Positions 34,425 through 45,239 of a stretch of 64,000 nucleotides of DNA are shown in pieces; the stretch's first letter is position 1; each line of letters begins with the position of its first letter. The stretch comes from Candidatus Nitrospira allomarina (lineage in GTDB: Bacteria; Nitrospirota; Nitrospiria; Nitrospirales; UBA8639). The translations under genes were made by a program, and so were the position numbers. Under the pieces are notes generated by a model. It searched no databases and was not told the DNA's origin. It saw only the letters and a list, made by a program, of their open reading frames with translations. The DNA lies in assembly GCF_032050975.1 (NCBI RefSeq), contig NZ_CP116967.1:3407001-3471000 (forward strand), given 5' to 3'.

Positions 34425-34754
34425 TCATATAGAAAGGAGCCGCTTGAGCAGGATGTCTTCGATATTCTGGCGTGAGTCAAGGACAGAAAGAACAAAAACC
34501 TTGTGCCCTGAAATTCGATAGATGATTCTCCATGGAGACACGATCAGTTCACGATATTGCAACACCCCTTGGGCATGGAGTTCTGGGATAATTCGGCCTC
34601 GCATTGGCGCCTGATAGAGTCTTGAAGCAGATTTGGTAAGTTTTCGGAGAATCTGCAAGGCCCGGGGAACGCTGTCTTCTGCGAGGTAAGAAACAATCGC
34701 CTGCAAGTCATTTTCCGCAATTTCCGCCCAAATGACCTCATAAACCTGTTTCAT
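34425..34754 (-). CDS. ParE/RelE-type toxin
   Basis: The 109-residue product has Y-E-V-I-W-A-E-I-A-E-N-D-L-Q-A-I-V-S-Y-L, R-L-Y-Q-A-P-M-R-G-R-I-I-P-E-L and Y-R-E-L-I-V-S-P-W-R-I-I-Y-R-I-S, followed by V-L-S-V-L-D-S-R-Q, the standard ParE-like toxin layout. ParE toxins poison gyrase, RelE members cleave mRNA; which applies is not evident. The ATG overlaps the antitoxin stop by four bases. No disruption is visible, so it is expected to be active. Confidence 0.9.
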   Translation of the reverse strand: MKQVYEVIWAEIAENDLQAIVSYLAEDSVPRALQILRKLTKSASRLYQAPMRGRIIPELHAQGVLQYRELIVSPWRIIYRISGHKVFVLSVLDSRQNIEDILLKRLLSI

Positions 34755-35026
34755 CGTCCCTGCAATCGAGACGCTAATTTCTTGAATACCTCAGCTTGTG
34801 TTCGAGTCTTGCCCCGTTTAATATCTTCTTCTCCTTGTGAAATCAGCTTTAACAGGCCAAGGGCATTTCTCATATCCTCATAGCTTTGGGGATCCTGTAG
34901 GACGGCCTTGGGTTCACCATTTTGTGTAATCACGACGGGGCGATGGGTATGGTTTACTTGATCTAATAACGCGGCCGCATTCGCTTTGAGATAAGTAATC
35001 GGTTTGATGTCTGACGTAATTTTCAT
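34751..35026 (-). CDS. Phd/YefM-type antitoxin
   Basis: The 91-residue protein reads K-P-I-T-Y-L-K-A-N-A-A-A-L-L-D-Q-V and P-V-V-I-T-Q-N-G-E-P-K-A-V-L-Q, the Phd/YefM DNA-binding and dimer core. The helical C-terminus would neutralise the toxin encoded directly after it. An AGGAGG-like GAGGCC precedes the ATG. Phd/YefM proteins usually repress their own operon; the operator was not identified. Confidence 0.9.
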   Translation of the reverse strand: MKITSDIKPITYLKANAAALLDQVNHTHRPVVITQNGEPKAVLQDPQSYEDMRNALGLLKLISQGEEDIKRGKTRTQAEVFKKLASRLQGR

Positions 35027-35648: not shown

Positions 35649-35960
35649 ATGACCGGGCAACCTATCATGCAAACCATACGCGAACAAATCGAAGCGAAGC
35701 GCGACAACATTCTTGCTCTAGCGGCCTCGCATGGAGCTCACAACATTCGTCTATTCGGCTCCGTCCTCAGAGGCGAAGCCACTGGCCGAAGCGACGTCGA
35801 TTTTCTCGTACAGATGGATGAGGGACGCACCCTGTTAGATTTGATAGGGCTGTCACAAGATCTGGAAGAACTCCTTCATTGCAAGGTCGATGTGGTAACC
35901 GACCGCGGGATCAGTCCATACCTCAAGGAACGCATTACTGCCGAAGCCGCTCCCCTATGA
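35649..35960 (+). CDS. mntA: MntA-type nucleotidyltransferase antitoxin
   Basis: The ATG at 35649 has AGGAGG eight bases upstream. The 103-residue protein is a minimal nucleotidyltransferase with G37-S38 and D49-V-D51, the G-S-x10-D-x-D motif intact. In MntA/HepT systems this enzyme AMPylates a Tyr of the HEPN toxin and so inactivates it. It overlaps the HepT gene by four bases (ATGA). Compare the degenerate nucleotidyltransferase at 8954, where these Asp residues are lost. Confidence 0.92.
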   Translation: MTGQPIMQTIREQIEAKRDNILALAASHGAHNIRLFGSVLRGEATGRSDVDFLVQMDEGRTLLDLIGLSQDLEELLHCKVDVVTDRGISPYLKERITAEAAPL

Positions 35961-36313
35961 AAGATGATCGTATGTATCTCCTCCACATCCGGGATGCTCT
36001 TGGCAATATTCGAGAGTATACGACACCCGGGCGTGAGGCGTTCTTTAACGACCGGAAAACTCAGGACGCAGTCATACGCAATTTAGAAATCATCGGCGAA
36101 GCGGTCAAGCATATGTCCGCGTCACTGAAAGCCACACACAACACCATCGCTTGGAAACAAATAGCCGGCATGCGAGACAGACTCATTCACGATTATTTTG
36201 GCGTCGACCTCAATCTTGTCTGGGATGTCGTGGCCAGCGAACTACCCCAACTTGAGCGCAAAACAAATCAGATTCTCGGCCATCCAGAAAAGCCGACCGG
36301 ACCCAATTCATAA
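35957..36313 (+). CDS. hepT: HepT-type HEPN RNase toxin
   Basis: The 118-residue helical protein has R73-x4-H78-x-Y80 in M-R-D-R-L-I-H-D-Y-F, the HEPN RNase catalytic motif and the Tyr that MntA AMPylates. Other family features: I-R-D-A-L-G-N-I near the N-terminus, V-I-R-N-L-E-I-I-G-E-A-V. All active residues are present, so the pair seems functional. It lies at the right end of the toxin-antitoxin stretch, just before the defence island. Confidence 0.92.
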   Translation: MKDDRMYLLHIRDALGNIREYTTPGREAFFNDRKTQDAVIRNLEIIGEAVKHMSASLKATHNTIAWKQIAGMRDRLIHDYFGVDLNLVWDVVASELPQLERKTNQILGHPEKPTGPNS

Positions 36314-37137: not shown

Positions 37138-37326
37138 CCTGAACTACCCCCAACAGGTTTATGCCAACGCCTCATCCCCACCCTCACAAATCCATAGCCG
37201 ATGCTCTATTCCAGGGTGAGAATCTTTCTCAGGGGAAAGAGGTCTTCATCCTTCAAAACTGTTTGAACAAAACTGGCACATCTCGAATTAACTCAAGTAC
37301 CAAGCATGCAACCGAAAAGGGCATTT

Positions 37327-37725
37327 ATGAAATTAGAAAGTACTATTGGCCATGCAAACCCAAAAAGCAACGAGCTTACATTTGTTGATGCAAACGAACT
37401 CGTTCGCAGCTTTTGCGAGCAACGAAACTGGCGGCAGTTTCATAAGCCGAAAGACTTAGCTATTGGGGTTGTCACGGAAGGCGCAGAACTTCTCGACTTG
37501 TTCAGGTTTAAAAGTGAACTGGAAGTTGAAGCTCTACTTTCCCACAAACGGACACGGGAAATGATTGCGGATGAAATGGCTGATGTTCAGTTCTTTCTAC
37601 TTCGATTAAGTGAAATAACCGGCATCAACTTAGGCGATGCCTTACGAAAAAAAATCAGAAAGAACCGAAGTAAGTACCCAGTGAAAAAAGCTAAGGGATC
37701 TAACCGAAAATATAACGAAAGCTGA
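37327..37725 (+). CDS. MazG-like nucleotide pyrophosphohydrolase
   Basis: The ATG at 37327 has AAGGG five bases upstream and is preferred over an ATG at 37306. The product (132 residues) has the MazG-like metal-binding layout: W-R-Q-F-H-K-P-K-D-L-A-I-G-V-V-T-E-G-A-E-L-L-D and D-E-M-A-D-V-Q-F-F-L-L-R-L, that is E-x-x-E with D-E-x-x-D, ending I-R-K-N-R-S-K-Y-P-V. This subgroup hydrolyses (d)NTPs such as dCTP to monophosphates. Only six bases separate it from the nuclease-helicase gene, so they form an operon. A role in nucleotide depletion or signal removal during defence is inference. Confidence 0.9.
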   Translation: MKLESTIGHANPKSNELTFVDANELVRSFCEQRNWRQFHKPKDLAIGVVTEGAELLDLFRFKSELEVEALLSHKRTREMIADEMADVQFFLLRLSEITGINLGDALRKKIRKNRSKYPVKKAKGSNRKYNES

Positions 37726-37731
37726 GGGTAA

Positions 37732-40125
37732 ATGCGACTCTATTCTTCTACCTCAGTTGACTTTGTAAGTGATGCGAATCGTAATCAGATCGCAGAAAAA
37801 CTTCGACGGTCGTTTTTTGAATCCTACAGATATAATCCTTCTGAAAATGAAGTACGATCCTGGAAAAATTCATTGCGTGCCATGTCCGGGGTTGTGACTA
37901 CAGCAGGACTTAAAGACAACGGCATCATGATCGAATACCAGTTGCCTCTGACCTCTAAAAGGCTTGATTTTATTATTACCGGGCAAGATCAAACAGGCCG
38001 CGAAAACGCGGCTATTGTTGAACTAAAACAATGGGAAAAGACCAAGCATAATGCAGGCGAGACACTTTTGACGTTTATAGGTGGAGGTGAGCGGCCTGTC
38101 CTTCATCCATCCGTTCAGGTAGGACATTATAAAATGTATCTGGGCGATACCCATACCGCATTTCATCAAGAAGCTAACCCTGTCCACCTCAGTGCCTGCT
38201 CCTATCTACACAACTATCAGGAAATTGAAGAAGATCCCTTGTTCAACTCTTCCTTTGATACGTGGTTAGATCAATACCCAGTATTTACCATGAGTAAGAC
38301 TGATAGGTTATGCGAATACCTTTACGCCCACACAGGAAAAGGAAAAGGCGACACGATACTAAAAAAAATAGAATCGGGAAACTACAAGCCCAGCAAAAAG
38401 CTGATGGAACATGTTGCTGGTGTAATCGAAGGGGAACCTTCGTATGTGTTACTAGATGAGCAATTAATAGTGTTTGAAAGAGTATTGGCACGCTCAAGGC
38501 GAATGGAAGAACAGGGCAAAGGTGTTCTTATCATTAAGGGTGGTCCTGGGACAGGAAAATCAGTCATTGCGATCAACCTAATGGCAAGGCTCCTGCGCGA
38601 GAGCCGAAACGTCCATTACACAACAGGCTCTAGAGCTTTTACGGAAACACTACGAAAAGTTATAGGGCGCCGAGGATCAACCCAGTTTAAATATTTCAAT
38701 AGTTATATGGGAGAAGAGGAAGAACTAATCGACATTATGATTGCGGACGAGTCCCATAGAATTAGGACGACAAGTAATAGTCGCTTTACTCCAAAGGGGA
38801 AACGTTCAAACACTTCCCAGATAGATGAACTCTTAAGCGTTTCCCGATTATGTGTGTTTTTTATAGACGACGCACAGATAGTTCGGCCCAACGAAATTGG
38901 CTCAGTAGATCACATAAAGCGTGCATCCGAAGCCCAGGGTATACCATACGAGGAATACCAGCTTGAGGCCCAATTCCGTTGCGGTGGTTCTGACGGATTT
39001 CTAAATTGGGTTGACAACACCTTAGAGATTCGGCGAACGGCGAATATCATCTGGGAGGGAGCGGAAGGCTTTCAGTTTAAAATCTTCGACAGTCCAAAAG
39101 CCTTAGAAGACGCGATTCGGGAGAAGGCATCCAAGGGAAATTCTGCCAGGGTAGTGGCTGGTTTCTGTTGGAAATGGTCCCCTGCACGAAAAGATGGAAC
39201 CCTTGAAGAGGATGTTGTCATTGGGGACTTCAAACGCCCTTGGGATGCCAAACCTGGAGCCAAGAAACTCGCCAAGGGAATCCCCCCAGCCGAGCTATGG
39301 GCATATGATCCCGGGGGGCTTGATCAGGTTGGCTGCGTATACACTGCACAAGGTTTCGAGTTTGATTATGTCGGGGTCATTTTTGGGCGAGATTTAGTTT
39401 ACAGATTTGATGATGGTGGTTGGAAAGGGGACAGGAAAGAGTCTGCAGATTCTGTGGTGAAGCGCTCCAAGGAAAGCTTTGTTGATCTCGTCAAGAATAC
39501 TTATCGAGTTTTACTCAGCCGGGGAATAAAGGGCTGTTACGTCCACTTCATGGATAAGGAAACTGAACGTTTTTTTAAAAGTCGAATGGACTTACAGTCC
39601 ACACTTGAAAAAGCTGTTACTACAGATGACTGGATGCCAACAATTATCGAACAGCCTGGGGAAAAGGCCTATAGAGAATATCTTCCTCTTTTGGCGCTTG
39701 AAGCTGCAGCAGGATACTTTGGGAAAGAAAGTGATACGAGCCCTGTTGGTTGGGTAAAAGTATCGGGCAGAAAGTTAAATGTTCGAATGTTTGTGGCAAA
39801 AGTTGTGGGGGATTCCATGGCTCCCAAGATTTTGGATGGGACTTATTGCCTTTTCGAATATGGCCCGGAAGGCACAAGGAATGGGCAGATTGTGCTAGCC
39901 GAACACAAGGGCTTTCATGAAATAGACACTAATTCCAGCTATTCGATCAAATACTACTTCTCTGAAAAACAAGTCCTAGAAGATAGTTGGACGCATCGAA
40001 GAATCGTCCTTAAGCCAGCAAACAAGAATTATCAAGAAATTGAAATTCCAGAAGAGCGGGCCGACGAATTTAGGATAGTTGCCCTTTACAGGGGAACTAT
40101 CAATTTGGATTCGGTGGACACCTAA
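37732..40125 (+). CDS. PD-(D/E)XK nuclease - DUF2075 helicase - S24 peptidase fusion
   Basis: This 797-residue protein has three parts. Residues about 55-110 carry a PD-(D/E)XK-like nuclease signature, Asp79 in R-L-D-F-I-I and Glu97-x-Lys99 in I-V-E-L-K. Residues about 255-640 are a DUF2075 (Schlafen-type) P-loop helicase/ATPase domain: Walker A G-G-P-G-T-G-K-S at 270-277, D-E-S-H box, F-I-D-D-A-Q, Q-F-R-C-G-G, and Y-T-A-Q-G-F-E-F. Residues about 655-790 are an S24/LexA-like peptidase with Ser695 in V-V-G-D-S-M and Lys740 in Y-S-I-K. Ala660-Gly661 lies 34 residues before Ser695, the LexA spacing for self-cleavage. The gene is AT-rich compared with neighbours outside the island, suggesting transfer. 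Phage or damage response is inference. Confidence 0.85.
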   Translation: MRLYSSTSVDFVSDANRNQIAEKLRRSFFESYRYNPSENEVRSWKNSLRAMSGVVTTAGLKDNGIMIEYQLPLTSKRLDFIITGQDQTGRENAAIVELKQWEKTKHNAGETLLTFIGGGERPVLHPSVQVGHYKMYLGDTHTAFHQEANPVHLSACSYLHNYQEIEEDPLFNSSFDTWLDQYPVFTMSKTDRLCEYLYAHTGKGKGDTILKKIESGNYKPSKKLMEHVAGVIEGEPSYVLLDEQLIVFERVLARSRRMEEQGKGVLIIKGGPGTGKSVIAINLMARLLRESRNVHYTTGSRAFTETLRKVIGRRGSTQFKYFNSYMGEEEELIDIMIADESHRIRTTSNSRFTPKGKRSNTSQIDELLSVSRLCVFFIDDAQIVRPNEIGSVDHIKRASEAQGIPYEEYQLEAQFRCGGSDGFLNWVDNTLEIRRTANIIWEGAEGFQFKIFDSPKALEDAIREKASKGNSARVVAGFCWKWSPARKDGTLEEDVVIGDFKRPWDAKPGAKKLAKGIPPAELWAYDPGGLDQVGCVYTAQGFEFDYVGVIFGRDLVYRFDDGGWKGDRKESADSVVKRSKESFVDLVKNTYRVLLSRGIKGCYVHFMDKETERFFKSRMDLQSTLEKAVTTDDWMPTIIEQPGEKAYREYLPLLALEAAAGYFGKESDTSPVGWVKVSGRKLNVRMFVAKVVGDSMAPKILDGTYCLFEYGPEGTRNGQIVLAEHKGFHEIDTNSSYSIKYYFSEKQVLEDSWTHRRIVLKPANKNYQEIEIPEERADEFRIVALYRGTINLDSVDT

Positions 40126-40191: not shown

Positions 40192-40629
40192 ATGCGATAT
40201 TGGTGGGTAAATCAAAATCAAATTTACCGCCAGGAGATTAACGGAGAATATCTTTGGTCTCCGAAGCGATCAGTGGGTGGCCGGCGAAATCCGTTCTATG
40301 AATTTATGCGTGAAGTGTCTCCAGGAGACGTTCTTCTTTCCTTTTGCGACACACGCATCACCGCTCTTGGCATTGCCCAGTCGTACTGCTATGAGTGGCC
40401 AAAACCGGATGAGTTTGGCACCACCGGCCTAAACTGGAGCGCGATCGGTTGGAAAGTAGATGTTCGCTTTCAAGAGCTGTCCAATCGAATCCGGCCCAAG
40501 GAACATATTCAGAAACTGCGGCCCTTTTTGCCAGAGAAATATTCGCCACTTCAGAAGGATGGTAATGGATTACAGAACCTCTATTTGGCCAAAGTCAGCC
40601 CTGCGCTTGCTGCATCGTTATTTGGGTAG
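40192..40629 (+). CDS. EVE-like N-terminal half of an HNH nuclease gene split by amber codon
   Basis: The 145-residue product starts M-R-Y-W-W-V-N-Q-N-Q, then Y-L-W-S-P-K-R and N-P-F-Y-E-F-M-R-E-V-S-P-G-D-V-L-L-S-F, and resembles the PUA/EVE-like domain found at the N-terminus of some HNH restriction endonucleases, where it can recognise modified bases. The frame ends with TAG at 40627-40629 but continues open without shift into the HNH part. In a single-gene reading the TAG would correspond to a Gln codon (CAG). So this is most likely one gene broken by a point mutation. Confidence 0.75.
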   Translation: MRYWWVNQNQIYRQEINGEYLWSPKRSVGGRRNPFYEFMREVSPGDVLLSFCDTRITALGIAQSYCYEWPKPDEFGTTGLNWSAIGWKVDVRFQELSNRIRPKEHIQKLRPFLPEKYSPLQKDGNGLQNLYLAKVSPALAASLFG

Positions 40630-40650
40630 ATTGGTCCTGAGGCAACTGCT

Positions 40651-41175
40651 GTGCAGGATACAGCAAATGCTATCGCCGAGCTGAGGCCTGTTGTACTGCA
40701 ACCCGAAGCAACCCTGGAGGAGTGGGAACAGAGGGTTGAGCGGATGATTCATAACACCCCGACACTACAGGAGACGGAAAAGGAATCGCTCATACAGGCT
40801 CGACGTGGGCAGGGCATGTTCCGGGCCAACGTTCAGCGGATTGAGAGGCAATGTCGGATTACCAGGGTCAATCGGCAGGAACATCTGATTGCCAGTCACT
40901 GCAAGCCCTGGCGCGACTCCACCAATGACGAGCGCCTGGACGGCGAAAACGGGCTGCTACTGACGCCAACCATCGACCACCTTTTCGATAAGGGCTTCAT
41001 CTCATTTGAAGGTAACGGCAGGCTCATAATCTCGCCGGTGGCGCATCGGCCATCGCTGATTAAAATGAGTATCGATGTTGACCACGATTTGAACGTTGGT
41101 GCCTTTAGCGAAGGACAGCGTCGCTTCCTGGACTATCACCGGGAGAATGTTCTTCGCATGGCAGGGCCGCCCTAG
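40651..41175 (+). CDS. HNH endonuclease domain, C-terminal half of the split gene
   Basis: In the same frame after the TAG, a GTG at 40651 could restart translation, but no ribosome binding site is evident. The 174 residues include R-V-N-R-Q-E-H-L-I-A-S-H-C-K-P-W-R-D, N-D-E-R-L-D-G-E-N-G-L-L-L-T-P-T-I-D-H-L-F-D-K-G, the HNH_2-type active site with H-x-x-x-S-H-C, N and H. These proteins are nucleases of type IV-like restriction. With its EVE-like part the full enzyme would have about 327 residues. Confidence 0.85.
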   Translation: MQDTANAIAELRPVVLQPEATLEEWEQRVERMIHNTPTLQETEKESLIQARRGQGMFRANVQRIERQCRITRVNRQEHLIASHCKPWRDSTNDERLDGENGLLLTPTIDHLFDKGFISFEGNGRLIISPVAHRPSLIKMSIDVDHDLNVGAFSEGQRRFLDYHRENVLRMAGPP

Positions 41176-41488: not shown

Positions 41489-42418
41489 ATGGGAAAAGCA
41501 CCCGACTTACGAGAAAATTTCAATCCACCTGATGAAATCATTCAGGCTGGCTTGAATGGGGATCTGGTCTTTTTTGTAGGAGCTGGGGCATCCGTGCTAC
41601 TTGGCCTGCCGTCATGGTCTGGACTGGCTACACGAACTCTCGATGATTTACGACAGAAGGGCTATTTGAACTATTCAGAAATTGAACAGCTAAATGACCT
41701 AGATCCCAAGAAGCAATTGTCAATTGCATACTCGATTGCTGAAGATAACAAATATAAATTAGACCTTACTAAGCACCTCACTGGTAAAAGTGAAGCCAAT
41801 AGTTTCTATAAAGCTGTTAATGACATAGGCTGTTCTTGTGTAACAACAAACTATGACGAACTATTGGCCCCACGTTTCGTAGATACGAAAGATGGATCTA
41901 CAACGGCTGCATCAATAAATCGAGTATATGAGAGAGAAAAGTTTTTCGCAAAATTGCTTAATGAGCCAGGAACAGTAGTTCATCTACATGGTGCTATTAG
42001 TAAACCAGAAACAATGATCGTGACAACTAAGGATTATCTTGAGCACTACGACCATGAAAATGTCCAAGAATTTCTGGATGAATTATTTGAAAAGAAGACC
42101 ATTTTATTTCTTGGTTACGGTCTGGAAGAAGCGGAAATATTAGAACATATATTAAGAAGGGGGTCAGCAAACCCAACCAGTGATAGAAGACGTTTTGCGT
42201 TACAGGGATTTTTCGTAAGTCAAAAACCACTTTATGAAAAACTTCATACATATTACGAGAAATCATTTGGAGTACATCTATTAGGCTTTGTCCGCGATCA
42301 CGAGAATTACAAATGTCTAGAGACGATTATAAAATCCTGGGCAAATGAAATTGAGGTAAGAAAGCCACCATTAGCTGCTGATAATGACTTTATGGATGAG
42401 GTTCTCGATGGTGACTAG
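41489..42418 (+). CDS. SIR2-family protein
   Basis: The 309-residue product has the SIR2 Rossmann features: F-F-V-G-A-G-A-S at 28-35, V-T-T-N-Y-D-E-L at 118-125 and V-V-H-L-H-G at 163-168, with I-L-F-L-G-Y-G-L-E-E-A-E near 215. No zinc ribbon is seen, as is usual in the defence-associated SIR2 group (SIR2_2), which degrades NAD+ after phage detection rather than deacetylating. The start is the ATG at 41489. Its stop lies inside the start of the 943-residue gene (11-bp overlap), so the two act as one unit. NADase action is from family knowledge. Confidence 0.88.
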   Translation: MGKAPDLRENFNPPDEIIQAGLNGDLVFFVGAGASVLLGLPSWSGLATRTLDDLRQKGYLNYSEIEQLNDLDPKKQLSIAYSIAEDNKYKLDLTKHLTGKSEANSFYKAVNDIGCSCVTTNYDELLAPRFVDTKDGSTTAASINRVYEREKFFAKLLNEPGTVVHLHGAISKPETMIVTTKDYLEHYDHENVQEFLDELFEKKTILFLGYGLEEAEILEHILRRGSANPTSDRRRFALQGFFVSQKPLYEKLHTYYEKSFGVHLLGFVRDHENYKCLETIIKSWANEIEVRKPPLAADNDFMDEVLDGD

Positions 42419-45239
42419 GTTATCAGCTAGAGAGCTGGATCTATTGCAACGTATTGATGAGAAGGAAGAGTTACGACCGCTATTTTTCCGTAAAGTTAAG
42501 GGCCTAAAATGGTTCGACCCTCTCACGGAACGGGGCTATTTTAGCCCTGACGCAAACCCGAAGCCTGTGCCTGCTAAAGAGGAGGGATACGTAAATATAC
42601 CATTTTGGCCCGTTGTTGATTATCTCGTTAAAACGGCTCCAGAATTCGCTGATAAAAAAAACCAAGAATATGCAGAAAAATTTCTTCAAGTTCTTGTGGA
42701 TGTTACTACTTACGCCAAAAATAATGGGATTAGCAATTACCGTACTTGGTCGCAATTTGCCGAAATACTCACGCAAATACCACATAATTCAATCCCTCTT
42801 AACACCATAGATATTGTCGACTACTGGCTAGACGACAAATATGAGCAAGGTCTAGTTGCACAGAAGATAGGTAAGAAATGGTTACCAAGGCTGTTGCAAT
42901 TAAGTGATGACCATGCCTTGCAATTAGCCAAGAGAATTATCGAACTCCTCTATAAAGTAATATTTGTCGAGCGTAAGTACGGTGAGAAGGGTAAGCAGGA
43001 ATCCTCTCTGAGATTTAAGGCCTATCACGCTCAAAAAATTACTGAAATGATAGCTAGGTTAGCCGGTGAAAAACTCGGTTTAGAAGCTATTCGAATATTC
43101 GATGCACTTTTAAGAAATACTCTAGAACAACACGAGAACGATTTATGGTCCTCAATTTGGCGACCTGCGATCGAAGACCACGAGCAAAATAAGCGCCGAG
43201 AGGATGCGGGAAATGTATTGATCCAGGCGTATCGTGATTCGATTGTTGGTTACATTCGTACCAACCCAGAGGAAGCGTCAAAATATGTTAAAAGCATGCT
43301 TGAGTCTGAATATCAGACTATTCAAAGGATAGCGATATACGTAATTACTATAAATTATCATCTATTTACAATTGGAATTGATAGCCTGCTGGCTGAGAAA
43401 TATTTGGATAGTAATTATCGGCATGAGATGTGGAATTTTATAAACAAAAGCTATCCACATTTTTCAGTCACGCAAAAAGAGAAAGTACTTGAATTAATAG
43501 CCAGCATAACTAGGCAAGATGATAATGGCGAATATCATGCGGGTGCAACCGCCTACAATAAAGCCATTTGGCTTTCAGCTATAAAGGCTCATGGGGATAG
43601 GGAAGCGCAGCTCTACGCAGAAAACACAGATATTGCCAGAACTGAACCAGATCATCCCAATTTTTCGAGCTACATGTCGGTACGATGGGGAGGTCGAAAG
43701 TCACCTAGAACTCAAGAAGAATTGCAAGCGCTATCGATTGATGAGCTGATTCAGGAATTAGAGAATTACAAAGATCCAGTCGGGTTTGATGAGCCAGGTC
43801 TGGAGGGGTTGGTAAAGGTCTTTAAACAGTTAGTAAAGACAGAGCCGCTCAATTTTTATCTGAATTTGAACAAATTCATTAATCTCGATTTGGCGTATAT
43901 TTACGAGATTATCGAGGCATATAGAGACTTATGGGCAGAGAAAGCCAAATTACCCTGGGATGAAATATGGAAAAAATTATTAGATTTTTGTTCTGACATT
44001 ATTACACAGGAACGATTTTGGGACCCTGAGAATGCAAAGCAGAGAGGAAAATTTGTTGCGAACCGATATTGGATTGTGAGTAGTATCGGACAATTAATCA
44101 AGGCAGGTGCAACATCAGATGATCATGCATTTAATGAGAGATATTTAGCTGGTGCAGAAAAATTAATCGCATACCTCTTAAATCTAGAGGAAGGGAACGA
44201 ATATAAAGAAGATAGTGATGCTGTATTTATATCAATTAATAGTCCCCGTGGGCATTGCCTAGAAGCTCTAATCAATTTAACCTTACGCTCGTGCCGAATT
44301 GCAGACAAAAATAACAATAAAGATCATTCGGAGATCTGGGCACACTTTCAGCATTACTATGATTCGGAGCTGGATCGTGCGGATTCAAAAATTCCTGAGT
44401 ATGAATTTGCTACGCTGGTGACTAATTATTTGCCTAATTTCCTATATATGTCAAAAGGATGGATTCTTGAAAACCTCAGCAGGATATTTGATCAAGATCA
44501 TTATTTAAAATGGCTGTGTGCCATGCAGGGCTATGCCTATGTAGGAACAATATCTCAGGAAATTTATAATTATTTAAAAGAGCATGGTGACTTATTAAAA
44601 GTCCTCGATGATGAGAATATCAAAGACAGAGTAGAGGAGAGGGCAATTCAGAATATTGCTATCGCCTTTATAAATGACTTTGAATCTTTTGAAGAAGATA
44701 ATAGTCTCATAAATATACTAATAACTAGGAATGACCAAAAAGAAATAAGCCATTTAATATGGTTTCTCTGGACTTTGAAAAAGAAAGGCGATGACAAATT
44801 AAAAAAGAAAATCTATGAATTGTGGCAAAAAATTCAAGAAAATATCGATTTAACGACAAAAGAAGGAAGAAGGATGGCCTCCCAGCTATGCTTCTGGGCC
44901 GTATTTATAGAGCAGATCGACGAAGAAAGACGACAACTACTTCTAGCAATAGCACCTTTTTCTGATGAATCGCATAATTCAGATGCGCTATTAGAAAGTA
45001 TTTCCGAAATCAGTAAAACACAACCTTTCGAAGCCCATGAAATTTGGATGAAGATGTTAGAAGGCTCTACACCAGATTATCCAGAACAAGCGGTTAGAAA
45101 GATATTTACTAATTTACTAAACACAGGTGCTGAAGGGGTGCGTAAAGCTAAAGAGGCGGAAAGCGTGTATCTAAAAAGTGGTAATGATAGACCTTCGATT
45201 TGGTTAAGAGAAATTATAAAAGAGACAAGGGGGATGTAA
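42408..45239 (+). CDS. Large helical protein partner of SIR2, putative sensor
   Basis: The ATG at 42408 has GAGG six bases upstream, inside the SIR2 gene. The 943-residue product is strongly helical, Leu- and Lys/Glu-rich, with no membrane segment, P-loop or nuclease motif that I can find. Regular helix-turn-helix stretches (for example A-L-Q-L-A-K-R-I-I-E-L-L and W-F-L-W-T-L-K-K-K-G) suggest a TPR- or HEAT-like superhelix. The arrangement, SIR2 effector plus a large overlapping helical protein, resembles two-gene abortive infection systems in which the second protein senses phage. I cannot assign it to a named system; it may belong to a DUF4020-like group, but this is unsure. Confidence 0.75.
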   Translation: MVTRLSARELDLLQRIDEKEELRPLFFRKVKGLKWFDPLTERGYFSPDANPKPVPAKEEGYVNIPFWPVVDYLVKTAPEFADKKNQEYAEKFLQVLVDVTTYAKNNGISNYRTWSQFAEILTQIPHNSIPLNTIDIVDYWLDDKYEQGLVAQKIGKKWLPRLLQLSDDHALQLAKRIIELLYKVIFVERKYGEKGKQESSLRFKAYHAQKITEMIARLAGEKLGLEAIRIFDALLRNTLEQHENDLWSSIWRPAIEDHEQNKRREDAGNVLIQAYRDSIVGYIRTNPEEASKYVKSMLESEYQTIQRIAIYVITINYHLFTIGIDSLLAEKYLDSNYRHEMWNFINKSYPHFSVTQKEKVLELIASITRQDDNGEYHAGATAYNKAIWLSAIKAHGDREAQLYAENTDIARTEPDHPNFSSYMSVRWGGRKSPRTQEELQALSIDELIQELENYKDPVGFDEPGLEGLVKVFKQLVKTEPLNFYLNLNKFINLDLAYIYEIIEAYRDLWAEKAKLPWDEIWKKLLDFCSDIITQERFWDPENAKQRGKFVANRYWIVSSIGQLIKAGATSDDHAFNERYLAGAEKLIAYLLNLEEGNEYKEDSDAVFISINSPRGHCLEALINLTLRSCRIADKNNNKDHSEIWAHFQHYYDSELDRADSKIPEYEFATLVTNYLPNFLYMSKGWILENLSRIFDQDHYLKWLCAMQGYAYVGTISQEIYNYLKEHGDLLKVLDDENIKDRVEERAIQNIAIAFINDFESFEEDNSLINILITRNDQKEISHLIWFLWTLKKKGDDKLKKKIYELWQKIQENIDLTTKEGRRMASQLCFWAVFIEQIDEERRQLLLAIAPFSDESHNSDALLESISEISKTQPFEAHEIWMKMLEGSTPDYPEQAVRKIFTNLLNTGAEGVRKAKEAESVYLKSGNDRPSIWLREIIKETRGM

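Follow-up and report, generated by a model that had tools for sequence, protein, structure and literature searches.

S24 peptidases are known to act as switches by cutting themselves: LexA and CI control transcription in this way, and UmuD a mutagenic polymerase. Besides Ala-Gly, the scissile pair may be Cys-Gly, a known alternative used by UmuD (PMC8565304). Cleavage of LexA-family proteins exposes C-degrons for Clp, and the LexA-like protein IrvR keeps the signature and cleaves itself without RecA (PMC7101444). Of the described enzymes that combine nuclease and helicase functions, Hachiman (HamAB) responds to damaged DNA (PMC12278908), and in E. coli it is ClpXP that turns HsdR off when restriction is alleviated (PMC4231737); a MazG domain has been predicted in defence by DefensePredictor, as a candidate (PMC13092281). 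In the literature searched we found neither S24 peptidases on nuclease-helicases, repeated across architectures, nor a description of DUF2075/S24/MazG systems or a paper on a MazG-helicase pair.

The gene considered here (37732..40125, forward strand) lies in a 64,000-nucleotide window, the whole stretch of Candidatus Nitrospira allomarina DNA that was analysed. It is an intact ORF of 797 aa in which a putative nuclease, an SLFN-g3 (DUF2075) helicase and an S24 peptidase are fused, and the residues named in the original prediction (D79, E97-L98-K99, GGPGTGKS at 270-277, A660-G661, S695 and K740) are all where it placed them. A Pfam search of the protein matched residues 264-608 (38521..39555, +) to the PF09848 helicase (E 6e-88) and residues 674-784 to Peptidase_S24 (PF00717, E 1.4e-9, above the cut-off). 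The Walker A motif is at 38539-38562 (+) and Walker B (D339-E340-S-H342) elsewhere within the helicase domain; these and the other SF1 motif residues are invariant in homologues. Fold matches of the full-length model (pLDDT 87) were human SLFN11, RecD2, Dda and Dna2, the first three of them for the helicase domain. At the helicase/S24 boundary, residues ~617-649 (39580..39678, +) form a predicted flexible linker, with low pLDDT at 623-633, and it is within this region, near residue 620-645, that homologues lacking S24 stop. The N-terminal domain (residues ~1-235) had no confident match in Pfam and no match in a PDB sequence search; profile matches to HSDR_N_2 and NERD were weak, the latter seen in 6 of 20 with a best E of 4e-4. 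Its reading as PD-(D/E)XK-like rests on the motif D79...E97-x-K99 (37966..38028, +), whose residues are kept in 53, 53 and 54 of 54 homologues, respectively.

Six bases 5' of the nuclease-helicase gene is a gene for a 139-aa MazG-like NTP pyrophosphohydrolase (37306..37725, +; PF12643, E 1.4e-10), whose true start may be an internal Met near 37327, judging from comparison with one related locus (L019). In a scan of 84,980 species, each represented by one genome, the 797-aa protein had 80 relatives. Among 27 full-length, S24-containing loci (three from the phylum search counted, the window's own left out), MazG is immediately 5' in 23 and further up in one; of the other three, one is at a contig edge. 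In the 56 S24-less relatives counted, MazG is directly upstream in 24, further upstream in four and downstream in three. Many loci show an ATGA overlap (gap -3) between the two genes, and all 56 MazG proteins compared from beside the helicase keep the ExxE...ExxD metal-binding residues unchanged. Genes downstream of the nuclease-helicase vary among relatives, and the unit was therefore set at two genes; because MazG mostly adjoins the helicase, whether or not S24 is there, the unit consists of MazG and the nuclease-helicase, with S24 as an addition. The pair without S24 is also present on two viral contigs. The MazG-SLFN-g3 pair looks like a so far undescribed system of two genes, found across bacteria and archaea and built around a Schlafen-class helicase; it is a guess that MazG would lower or edit the nucleotide pools in the course of the response. 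In three Hymenobacteraceae loci, two nuclease-helicases, both lacking S24, stand in tandem behind MazG.

The LexA-like S24 module, taken to include the cleavage-site strand, covers residues 650-789 (39679..40098, +). Its predicted scissile bond is A660-G661 (39709..39714, +), and the putative catalytic residues are S695 (39814..39816, +, in GDSM) and K740 (39949..39951, +, in SIKYY). Across 59 intact, non-redundant S24 modules, serine and lysine are each kept in 58, and the scissile pair is A-G in 47 and C-G in six, or 53 of 59; the remainder are A-T (four), A-S (one) and V-R (one). A660 and G661 rank 21 and 22 in conservation among the module columns, which argues that their fit is beyond chance. 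The five modules with A-T or A-S have an intact Ser/Lys dyad and may be uncleaved. V-R occurs in a 1208-aa protein with a weakly ResIII-like effector part (L162:2058-5684), in which the serine is also replaced by Ala and the lysine by Arg: the sole module without the dyad has thus lost A-G too, as a substrate-enzyme pair predicts (n=1).

The original prediction gave much weight to an exact LexA spacing. In LexA, G85 and S119 are 34 residues apart, and so are G661 and S695 here, yet the distance in relatives ranges from 34 to 47, with a mode of 35; the spacing is neither conserved nor needed, and it was rejected as evidence. Alignment of homologues thus bears out the bond and the dyad in most modules, while the spacing, and the bond in the five A-T or A-S modules, fall away. 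A nuclease-helicase at L048:6001-8313 is fused to a canonical S24 domain of another subfamily (Cys-Gly, 35 residues from Gly to Ser and 37 from Ser to Lys), and by its sequence is a separate, independent fusion.

A model of the isolated module (pLDDT 85, pTM 0.81) places the predicted scissile site at the end of strand 650-659, ahead of a loop. Among PDB structures it resembles most the LexA mutant 1jhe (Foldseek E 3.7e-6; TM 0.80 on LexA, 148 columns), whose changes, K156A excepted, promote cleavage without RecA (PMC3834820). The next structural matches are RecA-bound LexA and CI (8gms, 8gmu, 8trg, 8s7g) and a hyper-cleavable CI fragment (2ho0). The expectation that a predicted structure would bring the loop to the dyad is thus borne out in kind, at fold level, by a model that is nearest to cleavable and RecA-bound forms.

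Two observations go beyond the original prediction, namely that there is a MazG partner and that the module also occurs on other defence enzymes. In the phylum sample, 17 of 396 genomes had any match to the 797-aa protein, many to its S24 part only; in many of these matches the aligned part was confined to residues 630-790 and fell at the C-terminal end of another large protein. A module profile searched in about 400 genomes of each of three other bacterial phyla found it in 11/395, 18/395 and 5/398. The hosts are PD-(D/E)XK-SLFN-g3, GIY-YIG-SLFN-g3, HsdR (two types; five proteins), PLD-ResIII-DUF3427, ResIII of ~1040 aa and DEAD-MZB of 1977 aa, and the module is C-terminal in every intact case: it is portable among at least six nuclease-helicase architectures. 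In the ten GIY-YIG-SLFN-g3-S24 loci with MazG upstream, the predicted nuclease has been swapped, and MazG, helicase and S24 retained. Presence of S24 on the nuclease-helicase (SLFN-g3) tree takes 11 changes. Seven of them are imposed by branches with strong support, so by this reconstruction there have been at least seven gains or losses of S24. In the module's own tree, host architectures are mostly grouped (eight changes, against a least possible six), and the fusions are therefore old but repeated. Plasmid and phage searches gave one S24 match on plasmids and none in phages.

Could RecA be the trigger? The host genome encodes RecA; a search of it for PF01726 LexA found none, and its one other S24 protein is an HTH repressor with VAAG. 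Archaea lack bacterial-type RecA/LexA. S24 is present in 0 of 14 archaeal nuclease-helicase loci, which are scattered on the tree, versus 28 of 70 others (Fisher p 0.004, uncorrected for kinship); phylogenetic pairing left five pairs and a non-significant difference (p 0.25), with low power. The module was likewise found in 0 of 388 genomes of an archaeal phylum, in a scan without a positive control, versus 34 of 1188 bacterial genomes (p 8e-5). The absence of S24 from the archaea sampled fits a need for RecA, and RecA dependence of cleavage is plausible.

From the sporadic distribution, the neighbouring genes, the restriction enzymes that carry the module, and the viral contigs and plasmids, we infer a role in defence against mobile genetic elements (MGEs). 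In the window, a SIR2 gene and a 951-aa gene (41489-45239, +) together span the Dsr1 profile (13-287 and 309-1222 of 1227), and are by that profile a two-gene or frame-split Dsr1-like system. On the other side are a ParE/Phd toxin-antitoxin pair (34425-35026, -) and a nucleotidyltransferase with a HEPN-looking partner (35649-36313, +). Beyond the window the context is suggestive only: PADLOC families came to 109 versus 52 in two sets of about 90 neighbours (flanks versus random host genes), figures that are not per protein. Just downstream of the nuclease-helicase is a gene for an EVE-like plus HNH protein (40192-41175, +), broken by a single in-frame stop at 40627-40629; in another locus a relative of 329 aa, uninterrupted, lies directly behind the same operon (L022:6639-7628).

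The reading that we prefer, with a probability of roughly 0.55, is that the gene encodes the effector of a MazG two-gene unit, an anti-MGE nuclease-helicase that carries a RecA-stimulated self-cleavage switch. The nuclease-SF1 helicase would act beside the MazG-type nucleotide pyrophosphohydrolase, with the LexA-type S24 module added at its C terminus in this lineage. While dormant, the module would keep the enzyme S24-bound, probably dimeric or restrained. RecA filaments would form on the single-stranded DNA that DNA damage, a replicating phage or incoming DNA supplies; the module would dock on these filaments, the loop would enter the Ser695/Lys740 site, and A660-G661 would be cut. This would leave a 1-660 nuclease-helicase equivalent to many natural S24-less homologues, and for that reason release, that is, activation, is slightly favoured over inactivation. 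The parts of this scheme are not equally secure. The sequences themselves show the domains, the conserved bond and dyad, the neighbouring MazG and the module's portability; cleavage, its triggering by RecA, the anti-MGE purpose and which way cleavage acts are inferences. Self-cleavage of the module is quite probable, and, given cleavage, RecA is the likelier trigger.

The most serious alternative concerns the direction of the effect. The S24-bound form could be the active one, and the 1-660 fragment, ending in EAAA, could be destroyed by ClpXP after damage, sparing the damaged chromosome in a kind of built-in restriction alleviation. The predicted fragment ends in x-A-A in most modules (AAA in 23, IAA in 14 and VAA in nine of 59), LexA-type fragments with their exposed C-degrons are Clp substrates (PMC7101444), and HsdR, itself a host of the module, is a ClpXP target in restriction alleviation (PMC4231737). 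The two alanines at P2-P1 may, however, be kept for cleavage alone, and the natural S24-less homologues to which the fragment corresponds are presumably functional; we regard this reading as possible, on the unlikely side. A DNA repair or replication-stress enzyme, in place of a defence system, is a weaker candidate: SLFN11 and RecD2, among its closest folds, act on DNA under stress, and a MazG partner could sanitise nucleotides, but the sporadic distribution in the phylum sample, the occurrence on viral contigs and plasmids, the Dsr1-like and toxin-antitoxin neighbourhood and the presence of restriction enzymes among the S24 partners all speak for defence.

Doubts about the switch itself take two forms, each of which we consider improbable. 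One is that self-cleavage is constitutive and independent of RecA, making the module a maturation device or timer; IrvR provides a precedent for a retained signature without RecA, but RecA dependence accounts better for the lack of the module in archaea and for its close resemblance to the RecA-bound LexA and CI structures. The other is that S24 no longer cleaves, and instead holds the enzyme as a dimer or tethers it to RecA filaments. The L162 protein, whose module kept its fold after losing dyad and site, and the five modules with A-T or A-S may be examples of just this, but the remaining modules strictly conserve Ser, Lys and A/C-G, which speaks against it.

If the preferred reading of a RecA-stimulated cleavage switch is right, DNA damage may directly turn nuclease-helicases on or off: a LexA-type switch appears to have been wired straight onto DNA-destroying enzymes. 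The SOS signal would then reach restriction and defence without passing through transcription, which would explain in simple molecular terms how such enzymes are regulated once host DNA is damaged. More broadly, and at somewhat less than even odds, one portable LexA-type autoprotease may serve as a general fuse on anti-MGE nuclease-helicases, with RecA filaments setting restriction-type defence activity directly and post-translationally; this would take in the MazG-linked SLFN-g3 enzymes (PD-(D/E)XK or GIY-YIG), HsdR, PLD-DUF3427, ResIII and DEAD-MZB.

Compared with the described systems, the helicase shares an SF1 core with full motifs with the SLFN-g3/DUF2075 helicases (PF09848), PADLOC AbiO and Nhi. 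AbiO and Nhi gave no full-length match: their profiles cover part of the helicase only (237-416, E ~1e-11) and take in neither the MazG partner nor the S24 module. The main text on the DefensePredictor MazG candidates names no helicase or S24 partner (PMC13092281). Hachiman is also a two-gene nuclease-helicase unit, but its nuclease and helicase sit on separate subunits, HamA and HamB, which belong to other families, and it has neither an S24 switch nor MazG. HsdR of type I restriction is alike in that the same S24 module is found on some of these proteins and in the same need to spare the damaged host, whereas in the known alleviation ClpXP acts on HsdR as it translocates, and no protease within the enzyme is involved. 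LexA, UmuD and lambda CI (PF00717) share with the module its fold, Ser-Lys dyad and C-terminal placement, and the same Ala-Gly or Cys-Gly bond on a strand that immediately precedes the core. Ser and Lys are 45 residues apart here, against 37 in LexA, and a W..H insert is conserved in this S24 subfamily; in the known proteins the cargo is a DNA-binding repressor or a polymerase subunit, and here it is a nuclease-helicase.
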